A stretch of DNA of 64,000 bases, taken from Bacteroidales bacterium (lineage in GTDB: Bacteria; Bacteroidota; Bacteroidia; Bacteroidales; UBA932). Positions 28,005-32,311 of this stretch are shown piece by piece. The stretch's first letter is position 1, and each line of letters starts with the position of its first letter. Location of the stretch: positions 27,057-91,056 of the forward strand of contig JAFYYM010000075.1 of assembly GCA_017557535.1 (NCBI GenBank). Reading direction: 5' to 3'. The translations under genes were made by a program, and so were the position numbers. The notes under the pieces were generated by a model. The model was not told the origin of the DNA and ran no database searches. It saw only the letters and a list, made by a program, of their open reading frames with translations.

Positions 28005-28706
28005 TCAGCGATTTCCGCAAATACTAAGCCAGCGTCGAATGCACCAGGAGAATGCGGAAGCGAGTCGTCGCGCGTTGTCGGTAAAGTGTCCGCCTTCTTC
28101 CCAGACTATGGTGACGTTATCCTCACCGATCCTTTCTCTAAGAATGGCATATTCTTCTCTCACGGCGTCTCCCACCCTCGCTATAGATTGGTTGCGGACA
28201 TGTTCTTCCTTGTCTCCGAGGCTCAGATAGACTATTCTTGCCTTTGTGTGGTGGGCATGAGAATACTTCCCCCAATCCTTTATCCATAAGGAAGGGGAGG
28301 CGGCCGCGATGGCGGGGAACCTGTCCGATACGGTGGCTGACCATAATGAGAAAAGACCTCCCAAAGAATAACCTCCCAAGATAACTGGCAGATCTCCGTA
28401 TTTGTCAATTAGCTTAGGAAGCAGGTCGTCAGTGACGAATCTCAAGGTGTCTCCAGAGGCTGAACCAACCATCGGATCGCGGTTTATGGCGGGGTCGTGC
28501 CATGGAGTTAGGTCCAGATCCCAGTCGAGGACCTGGAAGGCAGCCATGACGAAAGGGACACCGGAGGATGCCCAAATCATCTCGACTTCATCATGAAAGT
28601 CCTTCCTCTCATGATTGCCAAGAGGTTGGATCAGGATAAGACGAGGGGATTCCGCCTCGGAAAGCAGGCATTCCCTGCCGGCTATGAAAGTGGATCTATT
28701 TATCAA
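28005..28706 (-). CDS. alpha/beta-hydrolase fold esterase
   Basis: This 233-residue protein lacks a signal peptide and seems cytoplasmic. The nucleophile elbow GGYSLGGLFSLW gives the catalytic serine. A possible acid residue is in SLGDKEEH, and the histidine is in EEGGHFTD near the C-terminus. The layout is that of Esterase D-like or siderophore/ester hydrolases; substrate is not predictable. It stands apart from the ABC module by a 21-bp gap and may be co-transcribed with it, being the first minus-strand gene after the promoter near 28746. Confidence 0.8.
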   Translation of the reverse strand: MINRSTFIAGRECLLSEAESPRLILIQPLGNHERKDFHDEVEMIWASSGVPFVMAAFQVLDWDLDLTPWHDPAINRDPMVGSASGDTLRFVTDDLLPKLIDKYGDLPVILGGYSLGGLFSLWSATVSDRFPAIAAASPSLWIKDWGKYSHAHHTKARIVYLSLGDKEEHVRNQSIARVGDAVREEYAILRERIGEDNVTIVWEEGGHFTDNARRLASAFSWCIRRWLSICGNR

Positions 28707-28753: not shown

Positions 28754-28834
28754 GTCATTTATGCTGATTGATAAAATGTTGATAATTGTTGATAAAATAA
28801 TGTGAAATGACTTTCCGATAAGACGAAAAGCATG

Positions 28835-28842
28835 TAAATTTG
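28835..28842 (+). promoter_or_regulatory. -7 box for the Na/Pi transporter fusion gene
   Basis: TAAATTTG fits TAnnTTTG, with TTTC at 19-20 bases upstream. It ends four bases before the ATG at 28847, which predicts a leaderless mRNA unless a later ATG is used. Confidence 0.45.
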
Positions 28843-28846
28843 TAGC

Positions 28847-30802
28847 ATGATCCTTACAATATTCAAGCTTCTCGGCTCAATCGCCCTCCTGATGTACGGT
28901 ATGAAGGTGATGAGCGAGGCCCTTCAGAAGATGGCCGGCCCCGGCCTGCGACATATCCTCGGGGCGATGACTACCAATCGTTTCACCGGAGTGCTCACCG
29001 GAATGCTCGTCTGCGTGGCTGTCCAGTCTTCGGCTGCAACTACGGTGATGACAGTCTCTTTCGTCAATGCCGCGCTCCTTTCGCTATCGCAGGCCATCTC
29101 GGTGATAATGGGAGCGAATATCGGAACCACGCTCTCAGCATGGATCATGTCGGCCGGGTTTTCCTTCAATATCGCGAATCTTGTATGGCCGGTATTCCTT
29201 GTGGCGGTCATCCTCATACAGAACAGGAAACACCGCTATCTCGGAGACTTCCTGTTCGGTCTCTCTTTCATGTTCTTCGCACTCGGTACTTTGAATATGA
29301 CAGGCCGCGAGATGGATCTGGCCCACAATGAGGGAGTTGTTAACTTCTTCTCCTCTTTTGATTCCGGAAGCTATCTGACGATTCTGCTATTCCTCTTGGT
29401 TGGTGGTGTGTTGACTGTCATAGCCCAGTCCTCAGCCGCCCTCATGGCCATCACAATGGTCCTCTGCACCAGCGGGGTCCTTTCTATATACCAAGGTATC
29501 GCCCTTGTCATGGGTGAGAATATCGGAACGACTGTGACCGCCAATGTGGCCGCTCTATCAGCCAACACACAGGCTCGCCGCGCCGCTCTGGCGCATTTAC
29601 TCTTCAACGTGTTCGGTGTGCTGTGGGTGTTGTGTCTTTTCTATCCTTTCGTCAACGCCGCCTGTTCTATTGTCGGAGTTGATCCCCATGCCGACGCTCA
29701 GAGCCCGGCCAGGCTTTCGTTTGTGCTGGCCACATTCCACACGATGTTCAATGTGACCAACACCGCCATACTGATCTGGTTCATCCCGCAACTTCAGAAA
29801 CTGGTGTCTTACCTTATTCCTCAGAAGTCCTCCGATGAGGAATTCCGTCTGCAGTACATTCAGACCGGTATCATGAAGACTCCTGAAATCTCTGTCCTCC
29901 AGGCTCAGAAGGAGACAACTCTCTTCGCCGACAGAATGCGTCAGATGTTCGCGCTCGTCCGTGAGTTGTACGATGAGACTGACGATTCGGCATTTGAGAA
30001 GAAGATTGAGCGGGTACGGGAGATGGAAAAGATGTCAGACCGTCTCGAGAGCGAGATCGGAAGCTACCTTGCCCAAGTCTCCAACTCTCATCTTAGTGAC
30101 GAGACCAAGCGTAAGATCCGCGCCATGTTGCGCGCTGTGAGTGAGCTTGAGAGTATTGGTGACAGTTGTTTGAACCTCTCAAGGATGATCGAGCGTCGCC
30201 ATAAGGAGAAAGAGCAGTTCATCCCGGTTCAGGAAGAGGGAATCGCCACGATGTTCGACCTATTGGACAAAGCTTTCGTCAATATGATCAAAGTGCTTGA
30301 GGGTGAGGGAGATCCGGATGAGTCCTGGGCTCTTGAGAATGACATCGATGATCTTCGTAACAAGCTGCGGTCTCAAAATACTCTGGATGTGGATGCCGGC
30401 AAGTATTCCTTCGCCTTGGGTACCATTTTCGTTGACATTGTCCGTGAGTGCGAGAAGTGCGGAGACTATGTGATCAATGCTGTAGAGGCTAAGATGGGTA
30501 AGAGGGAAGACGCTGATTTACTGAATCTTGACTCCCTGGTTATTGATCATCAGCGCAAGATCGCTCAGTTGTACGGAGAACCTCTTGATTTGACGAAGGC
30601 CGAATTCGAGCTTCTGAGTCTACTGGTCTCCAACCCGGGCAGAGTCTTCACCCGTGAGGAGCTTGTGGAATCCGTGTGGCCCAAGGATACTTCTGTCAGC
30701 GCAAAGGTCGTGGATGGAAGCATCCGTGATATCCGCGGCAAACTTGGGGATCTGTCTGGCCATATCGCGAATAAGGGCGGACTCGGTTACTGTTTCGAAT
30801 AA
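28847..30802 (+). CDS. Na+/phosphate cotransporter fused to a PhoU-like domain and a C-terminal OmpR/PhoB-type winged helix
   Basis: This is one 651-residue open frame with three parts. Residues 1-325 are the NptA/PF02690-type transporter with the duplicated QSS signature (60-62 and 194-196), each followed by a G(A/E)NIGTT loop. Residues 355-550 are PhoU-like helices with ELESIGD and ECEKCGD metal-binding repeats. Residues 561-651 match the winged-helix domain of OmpR/PhoB regulators: PLDLTKAEFELLSLLVSN, GRVFTREELVESVW, the recognition helix DGSIRDIRGKL and the GGLGYCF wing. A transporter and PhoU pair is a common architecture; the DNA-binding end is not, to my knowledge. A role as a membrane-tethered phosphate-responsive regulator is inference. 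No stop or frame shift separates the parts. Confidence 0.9.
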   Translation: MILTIFKLLGSIALLMYGMKVMSEALQKMAGPGLRHILGAMTTNRFTGVLTGMLVCVAVQSSAATTVMTVSFVNAALLSLSQAISVIMGANIGTTLSAWIMSAGFSFNIANLVWPVFLVAVILIQNRKHRYLGDFLFGLSFMFFALGTLNMTGREMDLAHNEGVVNFFSSFDSGSYLTILLFLLVGGVLTVIAQSSAALMAITMVLCTSGVLSIYQGIALVMGENIGTTVTANVAALSANTQARRAALAHLLFNVFGVLWVLCLFYPFVNAACSIVGVDPHADAQSPARLSFVLATFHTMFNVTNTAILIWFIPQLQKLVSYLIPQKSSDEEFRLQYIQTGIMKTPEISVLQAQKETTLFADRMRQMFALVRELYDETDDSAFEKKIERVREMEKMSDRLESEIGSYLAQVSNSHLSDETKRKIRAMLRAVSELESIGDSCLNLSRMIERRHKEKEQFIPVQEEGIATMFDLLDKAFVNMIKVLEGEGDPDESWALENDIDDLRNKLRSQNTLDVDAGKYSFALGTIFVDIVRECEKCGDYVINAVEAKMGKREDADLLNLDSLVIDHQRKIAQLYGEPLDLTKAEFELLSLLVSNPGRVFTREELVESVWPKDTSVSAKVVDGSIRDIRGKLGDLSGHIANKGGLGYCFE

Positions 30803-30820
30803 CACATAAAGCTATAACCA

Positions 30821-32311
30821 ATGTTCACAAAAGAAGATATCGCCCAGATAATGGGGCGTGGCGCTAGCCAATCCCAGGTGGAGGAACAAGTTGACCGCTT
30901 CAGGAAAGGCTTTCCCTGGATGAGAATCGTGGCTCCGGCCACTCCCGGGAACGGAATCAAGGTTCTCTCAGCTGAAGATGCGAAGGAGTCGGTAGAGTAT
31001 TACCATAGAGCGTCAGTCGAGGGCAAATGCAAATTCGTCCCGGCCTCTGGGGCCGCGTCAAGGATGTTCAAGGACATGTTCTCAGGGCTTGCCAAACTTG
31101 AGGCTGGCGAAGACCTTCCCGCAGACGCACCCGGCGCTAAGCTCGCCGCGAGGATCAAGGATTTCGCTTTCTACGACGAGACGTTGTTCGGTGAGCCTGA
31201 AGATAGCCGCGAGTACAGGATAAAAGCCTTGTCAAGGCTTCTGGGTGAGGATGGCCTCGCTTACGGTTCCAAACCAAAGGGTGTCTTGAAGTTCCACAGT
31301 TATCCCTCCGAGGTTAGGACAGCTATCGCTGAGCATCTTGTTGAGGCTCAGGAATATATGCGTGATTATGAAGATGTCTGCCATCTCGTGGTGACCATAT
31401 CCCCTGAGCACCGGGAGCTTTTCGAAAAGGCCGTCTCAGAGGTGGTTCCGGAATATGAGAAGCGCTATGGCGTCCATTATGATATCAATTTCACCTATCA
31501 GGACAAGGCGACTGACACGATTGCGGTTGACATGGATAACGAACCTTTCCGTACCTCTGACGGGAAACTTCTTTTCCGACCGGCAGGTCATGGAGCGCTT
31601 ATCCACAACCTCAACGAGGTCGACTCTGAGCTGGTCTCGATCAAGAACATCGACAATGTCTCCCATGAGAAATACCTCGGAGAGACATCCTTCTATAAGC
31701 AGGTCCTCATGGGGGAGGCGCTTAGTTTGCGGGACCAGATATTCCTCTATATCAGGCGGCTGAACGCTAATCCTTCAGAAGAGATTTGCGCGGAGATAGA
31801 AGAATTCCTTGACGTTGTCCTCTGTGTCAAGATTCCTAAGGTCAGTGACCTTAAGGCGAAGGCGGAGTTGCTGCGTTCAAAGCTAAACCGTCCGATCCGG
31901 GTTTGCGGTATGGTACGCAACGAGGGAGAGCCCGGTGGAGGCCCGTATATCATTGAGGGAAAGGACGGCTGCACATCGCTTCAGATTCTGGAGAGTGTCC
32001 AGATCAACAAGGATGACCCGCATGCGGCTGAGGCTATGGCGGGGGCCACACACTTCAACCCTGTTGACTTGGTCTGCTTGCTTCGGGACTGCAGGGGAGA
32101 GAAGTTCGATCTTCTTTCCCACGTTGACCCTGAGACCGGTTTCATCAGCTCGAAGAGTTATCAGGGTAGGGAATTGAAAGCACTGGAACTTCCCGGTCTG
32201 TGGAACGGAGCCATGAGCGACTGGAACACCCTTTTCGTGGAGGTTCCGCTTATAACATTCAACCCGGTGAAAGTCGTCCTGGACCTGCTGCGTCCGGCGC
32301 ACCAGGGGTGA
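30821..32311 (+). CDS. DUF4301 family protein (nucleotidyltransferase-like fold)
   Basis: This 496-residue cytoplasmic protein belongs to a Bacteroidetes family of unknown function. The early motif KFVPASGAASRMFKDM resembles the sugar-nucleotide binding loop of GT-A type nucleotidyltransferases, and KPKGVLKFHSYP and RPAGHGALIHNLNEVDS look like further substrate-binding blocks. Whether it makes a nucleotide sugar or acts on another phosphate ester is unknown. It starts 18 bp after the transporter fusion on the same strand and is probably co-transcribed with it, which is interesting if that operon responds to phosphate. Confidence 0.85.
   Translation: MFTKEDIAQIMGRGASQSQVEEQVDRFRKGFPWMRIVAPATPGNGIKVLSAEDAKESVEYYHRASVEGKCKFVPASGAASRMFKDMFSGLAKLEAGEDLPADAPGAKLAARIKDFAFYDETLFGEPEDSREYRIKALSRLLGEDGLAYGSKPKGVLKFHSYPSEVRTAIAEHLVEAQEYMRDYEDVCHLVVTISPEHRELFEKAVSEVVPEYEKRYGVHYDINFTYQDKATDTIAVDMDNEPFRTSDGKLLFRPAGHGALIHNLNEVDSELVSIKNIDNVSHEKYLGETSFYKQVLMGEALSLRDQIFLYIRRLNANPSEEICAEIEEFLDVVLCVKIPKVSDLKAKAELLRSKLNRPIRVCGMVRNEGEPGGGPYIIEGKDGCTSLQILESVQINKDDPHAAEAMAGATHFNPVDLVCLLRDCRGEKFDLLSHVDPETGFISSKSYQGRELKALELPGLWNGAMSDWNTLFVEVPLITFNPVKVVLDLLRPAHQG

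Follow-up and report, generated by a model that had tools for sequence, protein, structure and literature searches.

Why should a phosphate transporter carry a DNA-binding domain at its end, and on which DNA could that domain act? The question is raised by one gene of the window (the whole stretch of 64,000 nucleotides analysed here, from contig JAFYYM010000075.1 of a Bacteroidales bacterium), in which the preliminary description had read an Na/Pi cotransporter, a PhoU-like domain and a PhoB-type winged helix as a single polypeptide. The gene and its parts are located as follows:

28847..30802, + strand: whole fused gene, Na/Pi cotransporter, PhoU and PhoB winged helix (651 aa; profile matches)
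28847..29821, + strand: transporter part, residues 1–325, duplicated QSS / G[AE]NIGTT motifs (PF02690, TIGR00704, motif positions)
29909..30496, + strand: PhoU-like part, residues 355–550, ExxxD motifs (PF01895; TIGR02135 below cut-off)
30512..30799, + strand: PhoB-type effector domain, residues 556–651, PF00486 match 577–650 (profiles, dN/dS)
30698..30745, + strand: recognition-helix stretch, residues 618–633, SAKVVDGSIRDIRGKL, which in the window's clade departs from that of PhoB (alignment with PhoB)

The gene is a single open frame of 651 codons (28847–30802, plus strand), as had been described, and its three parts matched Pfam models above their curated cut-offs: Na_Pi_cotrans (PF02690, E 1.3e-51) in two stretches, the best at residues 14–149, PhoU (PF01895, E 2.1e-11) at residues 362–446, and Trans_reg_C (PF00486, E 4.1e-20) at residues 577–650, covering positions 1–77 of the 77 of the profile. 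Among NCBIfam models, TIGR00704 was above its cut-off across residues 3–327, and TIGR02135, the model of stand-alone PhoU, spanned residues 363–546 below its cut-off. The duplicated transporter signatures claimed beforehand were found as QSS at residues 60 and 194 and G[AE]NIGTT at 89 and 223, and the PhoU-like metal motifs placed at 355–550 agree with the PF01895 match and with ExxxD at residues 394, 435, 497 and 536, among others. On these profile and motif criteria, the window protein is classed as a member of the Na/Pi cotransporter family (PF02690 / TIGR00704), and its middle part as a member of the PhoU family.

For the winged helix, the top-scoring NCBIfam model was that of the Bacteroidetes PhoB (NF053854, residues 550–651), aligned at model positions 124–225 only and with 85 bits against a whole-protein cut-off of 270, which is not reached because the match covers the effector part only. 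No receiver domain was found in the fused protein by the Pfam scan, nor in the NF053854 match, confined to positions 124–225. The domain also matches solved OmpR/PhoB effector domains, E. coli PhoB 1gxp among them. The fear that the C-terminal 90 residues might fail winged-helix profiles is removed by the full-length PF00486 match, and of the winged helix announced at residues 561–651 the domain itself stands, whereas its recognition helix, diverged from that of PhoB, is not the plain match that had been claimed. The presence of transporter, PhoU and OmpR/PhoB winged helix in one chain is confirmed as real, and one copy of the fusion was found in the window's genome.

Among the best 80 of the 256 loci obtained in a scan of public genomes, many showed the identical full-length frame. 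Relatives were present in 186 of 199 genomes of the window's family, at least 14 of them, in three genera, being fused. Close homologues do not all end before residue 555: the winged helix is kept in related species, with a fused frame in 42 of 110 loci, although 64 are not fused; the remaining four were labelled adjacent, one of them (L074) owing to runs of N, for which it was excluded from the tree and box counts. Two of the loci, L082 and L084, are apparently contigs of L004 and L041 encountered again. The fused frames come from several metagenome projects, with 56–97% identity, and many rumen or gut Bacteroidales assemblies share the unbroken fusion. Among the matches listed for 393 genomes of the order, fused frames appeared only in the window's genome and in one genome of another family (G625:C36:114657-116600), where transfer, contamination or an older origin could account for it.

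Two further frames are worth recording. The genome of the unfused locus L031 contains a winged-helix match within a 657-aa frame (G231:C22:73858-74145) that looks like a second, fused copy. In the fused locus L092, an open frame of 950 aa was discarded as a genuine longer protein, as its extra N-terminal stretch, judged by eye, resembles non-coding read-through.

Relatives in which the parts are still separate point to where the fusion may have come from. In three loci (L034, L038, L058), the gene immediately downstream of nptA-phoU is a complete phoB, with receiver and winged helix, and the next one encodes a histidine kinase; PhoR was the best-scoring model for the kinase of L034, below the model cut-off. 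The same order of nptA-phoU, phoB and PhoR-like kinase, with a 95-bp gap, was found in G452, from another family. This row of genes (G452:C46, locus L211), in which a Pho-box-like repeat stands 38 bp upstream of nptA, is a possible picture of the ancestral order. When 10 fused winged helices were compared with 39 PhoB sequences (some of them repeats), nine had that of L034 or L038 as top match, the window's own being the sole exception. Adjacent nptA-phoU, phoB (with receiver) and phoR genes were likely the ancestor of the fusion: the transporter gene would have gained the DNA-binding half of a phoB gene formerly downstream of it, with loss of the receiver between the transporter end and the PhoB linker, and with the receiver gone, control by the kinase PhoR would be gone too. 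As to the number of such events, the junction, of equal length in the two fused clades, speaks for one origin and the placement of unfused nptA-phoB-phoR loci beside one fused clade speaks for two; a single clade of fused winged helices was not rejected (p-AU 0.78).

The fused genomes contain little else of a phosphate regulon. The fusion holds the sole PF00486 match in 24 of the 28 fused genomes searched, a subset of the 39 fused genomes (exceptions G208, G219, G224, and G225). In the window's genome, too, it is apparently the one domain of this kind. At least six of the 39 (G204, G208, G212, G215, G224, and G225) also encode a PhoB-like regulator of full or nearly full length apart from the fusion; since G204, G212, and G215 lie outside the 28, the fair count of sole-domain genomes is 24 of 31. 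Among these genomes, separate full-length PhoB-like regulators were seen on contigs C48 of G208, C29 of G224, and C7 of G204. All nine unfused relatives without phoB lacked any PF00486 match, and the three genomes with phoB beside nptA had two matches each. A strong PhoR relative (E under 1e-40) was present in these three genomes and in two of 29 fused ones (G208 and G224), in both on the contig of the separate phoB and not on that of the fusion; the other 27 were without it. No cognate PhoR was found for the window fusion, the best match to the L034 kinase in the window's draft genome (G000) having an E of 7.5e-5.

Regarding other transporters, PstB was over its cut-off in none of 40 genomes, including all 28 fused ones, against 13 of 14 control genomes, with G238 (phoB beside nptA) coming near it at 315 of 343 bits. 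PstC was not found in G000 and is present in 61 of 119 genomes of the order, and PiT was detected in one of 41 genomes (G224, fused). As the genomes are drafts, single absences mean little. The rumen is rich in phosphate, and a genome that has lost Pst and is left with a single low-affinity Na/Pi carrier would suit such a habitat. In pneumococcus, NptA is a low-affinity transporter (PMC4913102).

Is the winged helix still at work? Across 11 groups of close kin its dN/dS is 0.040–0.353 (0.108 for the group of the window), below 1 throughout, which indicates purifying selection on the domain; in all 11 it exceeds that of the transporter part. The recognition helix, located by alignment with PhoB alone, reads VVDGSIRDIR in the window against TVDVNITRIR in PhoB (AKVVDGSIRDIRGKL against ERTVDVNITRIRKKL in the corresponding PhoB helix of L034 and L038), with loss of the VDVN stretch and gain of an Asp. 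Such diverged helices, with lower net charge, are found in the window's clade and some others; overall, 18 of 39 fused rows retain a PhoB-like helix (VDVN or VDLN), and in 21, the window's clade included, it is altered. DNA binding by the window copy is, for this reason, less sure than binding by its relatives.

The promoters of the fused genes were analysed by a de novo motif search on 34 sequences (60 starts, against 20 for each of six shuffled sets). Two motifs emerged, TAnnTTTG, which we take to be the Bacteroidota −7 element, and GTTAAAATTTTGTTAAAA, with log-likelihoods of 188.7 and 165.4 against 67.4 for the best shuffled set. In the second, a unit of 7 bp is directly repeated after a 4-bp spacer (7 bp-N4-7 bp), which gives a period of 11 bp; direct repeats of this design are usual sites of OmpR/PhoB regulators (PMC4832192). 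Half-sites spaced by 11 were present in 8 of 36 promoters, and other spacings from 7 to 18 in none or one.

A box was counted when at least 9 of 12 key bases, with TTA in the second half-site, were found on the same strand 52–56 bp before the −7 element; the rules were set after the sequences had been seen, and the many unfused promoters without a recognised −7 element were counted as having no box. Under these rules, the Pho-box-like repeat (GTTAAAA-N4-GTTACAA type) was present in 15 of 39 fused rows versus 0 of 67 unfused rows (Fisher p 4e-8) and, among fused rows, in 15 of the 18 with an intact helix (VDVN/VDLN) versus 0 of the 21 with an altered one (p 3e-8), both values uncorrected for kinship; the 15 boxes lie 53–55 bp before their own −7 element. 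On the tree, supported independent pairs numbered three for helix and box and six for fusion and box, none opposite, with a median p of 0.25 in each sign test. The zero among altered helices results from the TTA demanded in the second half-site, as without it two of the 21 (L007 and L009, with GATAAAA at the corresponding position) would count with a score of 9. Of the 15 boxes, four (L012, L067, L086, and L087) do not exceed 9 of 12, a value reached by 7–18% of their shuffles, and three intact-helix fusions (L039, L041, and L092) have no box. Searched on both strands and at any position, scores of at least 11 were found in 8 of 38 fused promoters (0.05 expected) and in 0 of 64 unfused ones; nine of the latter reached 10 (2.75 expected), and none 11.

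Throughout 25 genomes (14 intact-helix fused and 11 unfused), GTTAARATNNTGTTAMA with at most one mismatch gave 21 matches. Ten of these stand upstream of the fusion, in 10 of the 14 genomes that carry it with an intact helix: all six exact matches and four of the 15 with a single mismatch. Since the reversed control also gave 21 matches, the 11 located elsewhere are at chance level, and no second target of the repeat stands out in these genomes at that threshold, weaker sites being conceivable. The repeat and its position before the own gene suggest that the fusion acts on the gene of the transporter itself.

A repeat of the same design was found among 18 regions, the majority taken from the surroundings of pst or npt genes and of phoB in other Bacteroidales. 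Allowing up to one mismatch, GTTACAA-N4-GTTACAA occurred six times in these regions, against none in the reversed and none in the shuffled sequences, and GTTACAA half-sites peaked at spacing 11 (14 versus 0–3). It was located upstream of pstS in the PhoB-bearing genomes of L199, L209, and L210, of nptA in G452, and of a 430-aa gene that matched no NCBIfam model (L205); in L210 a further copy precedes phoB by about 300 bp. Of the loci with phoB and kinase beside nptA, L058 has such a repeat in the opposite orientation, and L034 and L038 showed none at a score of at least 10 within 2.2 and 4.7 kb upstream. In the 18 regions, a score of at least 11 was found six times forward and six times reversed (5 of 6 non-coding in both), so this score alone shows nothing. 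The Pho box was not enriched in the 450 bp before pstC (4 of 26 at a score of at least 10, about 2.7 expected, 4 of 30 loci left out), which is perhaps explained by pstS preceding pstC in many operons. GTTACAA-N4-GTTACAA is likely the Bacteroidales Pho box and a candidate binding motif of PhoB, which in B. fragilis binds the promoter of the pst operon in gel shifts (PMC3547664).

From these data, we favour, at slightly better than even confidence, a membrane-anchored one-component regulator descended from PhoB that would mainly control its own gene. The membrane-tethered, PhoB-like one-component regulator proposed beforehand is thereby upheld in part: the adjacent-gene relatives, the sole OmpR/PhoB-type domain in most fused genomes searched and the promoter repeat that tracks the state of the helix argue for it, and the diverged recognition helix makes binding by the window copy itself less sure.

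The same domain could instead be a relic in decay, without regulatory work since the loss of phoR and the receiver, tolerated and repeatedly lost. The fewest state changes on the tree are 10 for the domain, 6 for the helix and 8 for the box, and such repeated changes indicate that the domain is dispensable in some lineages; it is missing in close relatives inside the fused clades (for example, L026–L029 and L032), recognition helices are altered in several lineages, and its dN/dS exceeds the transporter part's throughout. Against this, those values do not rise beyond 0.353, and a PhoB-like helix is conserved in nearly half of the fused rows, most of them with a promoter box; we regard decay as unlikely.

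The window's own clade requires separate consideration, with the following features around the fused gene:

28768..28795, + strand: three tandem TTGATAA copies, proposed own-promoter element (present in 8/9 clade promoters)
28835..28842, + strand: −7 promoter element TAAATTTG, TAnnTTTG type (de novo motif)
28005..28706, − strand: divergent putative esterase (PF00756); the TTGATAA repeats lie in the 140-bp gap between it and the fusion (frame list, Pfam)
30821..32311, + strand: DUF4301 gene, 18 bp downstream of the fusion (frame list, Pfam, neighbour comparison)

The three TTGATAA copies start at 28768, 28779, and 28789, with spacings of 11 and 10 and a mean of 0.00 expected in the window. They overlap GTTGATAAA (28788–28796), which in 8 of 9 promoters of the clade (anchored on GTTGATAAA itself, L006 left out) lies 46–48 bp before the −7 element, about the position of the second half-site in other clades. 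The element is absent before the L002 fusion, though the L002 protein is 97% identical to the window's; the same stretch reads GATAAAT-N4-GATAAAA in L007 and L009. The 14-base extension of GTTGATAAA, TGTTGATAAAWWAA (28787–28800, once in G000), occurs exactly once, before the fusion, in five of the nine clade genomes, G000 included, and not in the other four; it is also found once in an unfused genome, for a total of six matches versus three in the reversed control. We read this as a shift in specificity, in which helix and element would have changed together, a reading less sure than binding by the intact-helix relatives. Alternatively, DNA binding may have been lost in this clade and the element retained for another reason.

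A domain turned to a role without DNA, pairing transporter and PhoU parts by protein–protein contact or gating transport, would be conceivable in this clade most of all, where the helix has diverged and its net charge is lower, yet purifying selection persists. We consider it improbable, a little more so than decay, as GTTGATAAA keeps a nearly fixed place in the clade promoters and its 14-base extension is found nowhere but before the fusion in the five clade genomes that carry it. Very improbable is a soluble regulator, with the winged helix cleaved off or made from an internal start and acting as a free DNA-binding protein; the methionine at the PhoU/winged-helix junction (MGKR) of the window's clade, which would suit such a start, is not kept: most sequences of the second fused clade have leucine there, and some members of the first have leucine, lysine or arginine. 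Finally, an assembly or annotation artefact, for which no supporting point was found, is ruled out by the identical unbroken frame recurring across many independent assemblies.

Regarding the neighbours, the divergent esterase could be a second, co-regulated target. The DUF4301 gene, put forward earlier as target or partner, did not find support and was rejected as a partner: it is the first downstream frame in the window's nearest kin only (L001–L005, L007–L010, and L082, a repeat of L004; in L006 the neighbour is cut by the contig end) and is absent after the other fused loci, so that its adjacency is local synteny.

No such fused protein was found in the available portions of the mainly non-subscription literature on fusions of phosphate transporters, on PhoU joined to DNA-binding domains, on one-component regulators of the membrane and on trigger transporters. 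Compared with the PhoB-PhoR pair of Bacteroidota (NF053854 / NF053855), the fused winged helix scores best against the PhoB family, part of the fused rows keep a PhoB-like recognition helix, and the direct repeat before pstS and nptA of PhoB-bearing relatives has the same design; the 7-bp direct repeats with a 4-bp spacer expected for PhoB are present at many fused promoters, the periods in the window's own being 11 and 10 bp. In contrast to that pair, the fusion is without receiver and tethered to a transporter, in most fused genomes searched without a close PhoR. It has one standout target, its own gene, whereas B. fragilis PhoB controls hundreds of genes (PMC3547664). With the nptA-phoU cotransporters (TIGR00704/PF02690 and PF01895) it shares both parts at full length and with their signature motifs; most of the relatives compared here end near residue 555, and the fusion adds the winged helix.

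Other systems are similar in part. In CadC and ToxR, the winged helix is N-terminal, and the protein has one membrane helix and a sensor in the periplasm; the fusion would share with them a membrane-anchored DNA-binding domain, expected to meet DNA there, but its winged helix is C-terminal (577–650), behind the transporter (3–327) and PhoU, and does not follow their layout. CbrA, a transporter–histidine kinase fusion, likewise combines transporter and signalling output in one chain, with a kinase as output where the fusion has a DNA-binding domain. ChxR and HP1043 are soluble proteins with, as in the fusion, a PhoB-type output freed from phosphorylation; the fusion differs in being membrane-tethered and without receiver. 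These two atypical OmpR/PhoB regulators need no phosphorylation and retain the receiver domain (PMC3960148). That a membrane-anchored regulator can reach its DNA is illustrated by CadC, which finds a single site in four to five minutes on average (PMC7888679).

For the membrane-anchored regulator that we favour, the fused protein would sit in the membrane with its winged-helix tail in the cytoplasm, and the PhoU part would convey to the winged helix the state of transport or of phosphate. A pair of adjacent subunits would bind the direct repeat with 11-bp period just upstream of their own promoter and, at low phosphate, activate the gene, so that the transporter would set its own level; activation is the likeliest sign, as the element is situated well before the −7 element, away from the core promoter. 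From sequence we infer that the tail is cytoplasmic, that the protein binds DNA and dimerises there, and that PhoU acts as the sensor, and likewise the sign of regulation and phosphate as its signal.

More tentatively, and with rather less than even confidence, we propose that the whole phosphate regulon has been reduced to a single gene: one membrane protein would be carrier, sensor and transcription factor at once, its chief target its own promoter reached from the membrane, with helix and DNA element drifting together in some lineages, the window's included, and both dropped in others. The relatives form a natural series, from adjacent genes for transporter, regulator and kinase through fusion to absence, along which the fate of a regulon can be traced, and as a byproduct they provide GTTACAA-N4-GTTACAA as a likely PhoB binding motif for Bacteroidales. 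If true, this would be a regulator without middleman, in which the carrier senses its own state of transport and controls the transcription of its gene, and membrane-tethered autoregulation would become testable with one gene and one promoter.
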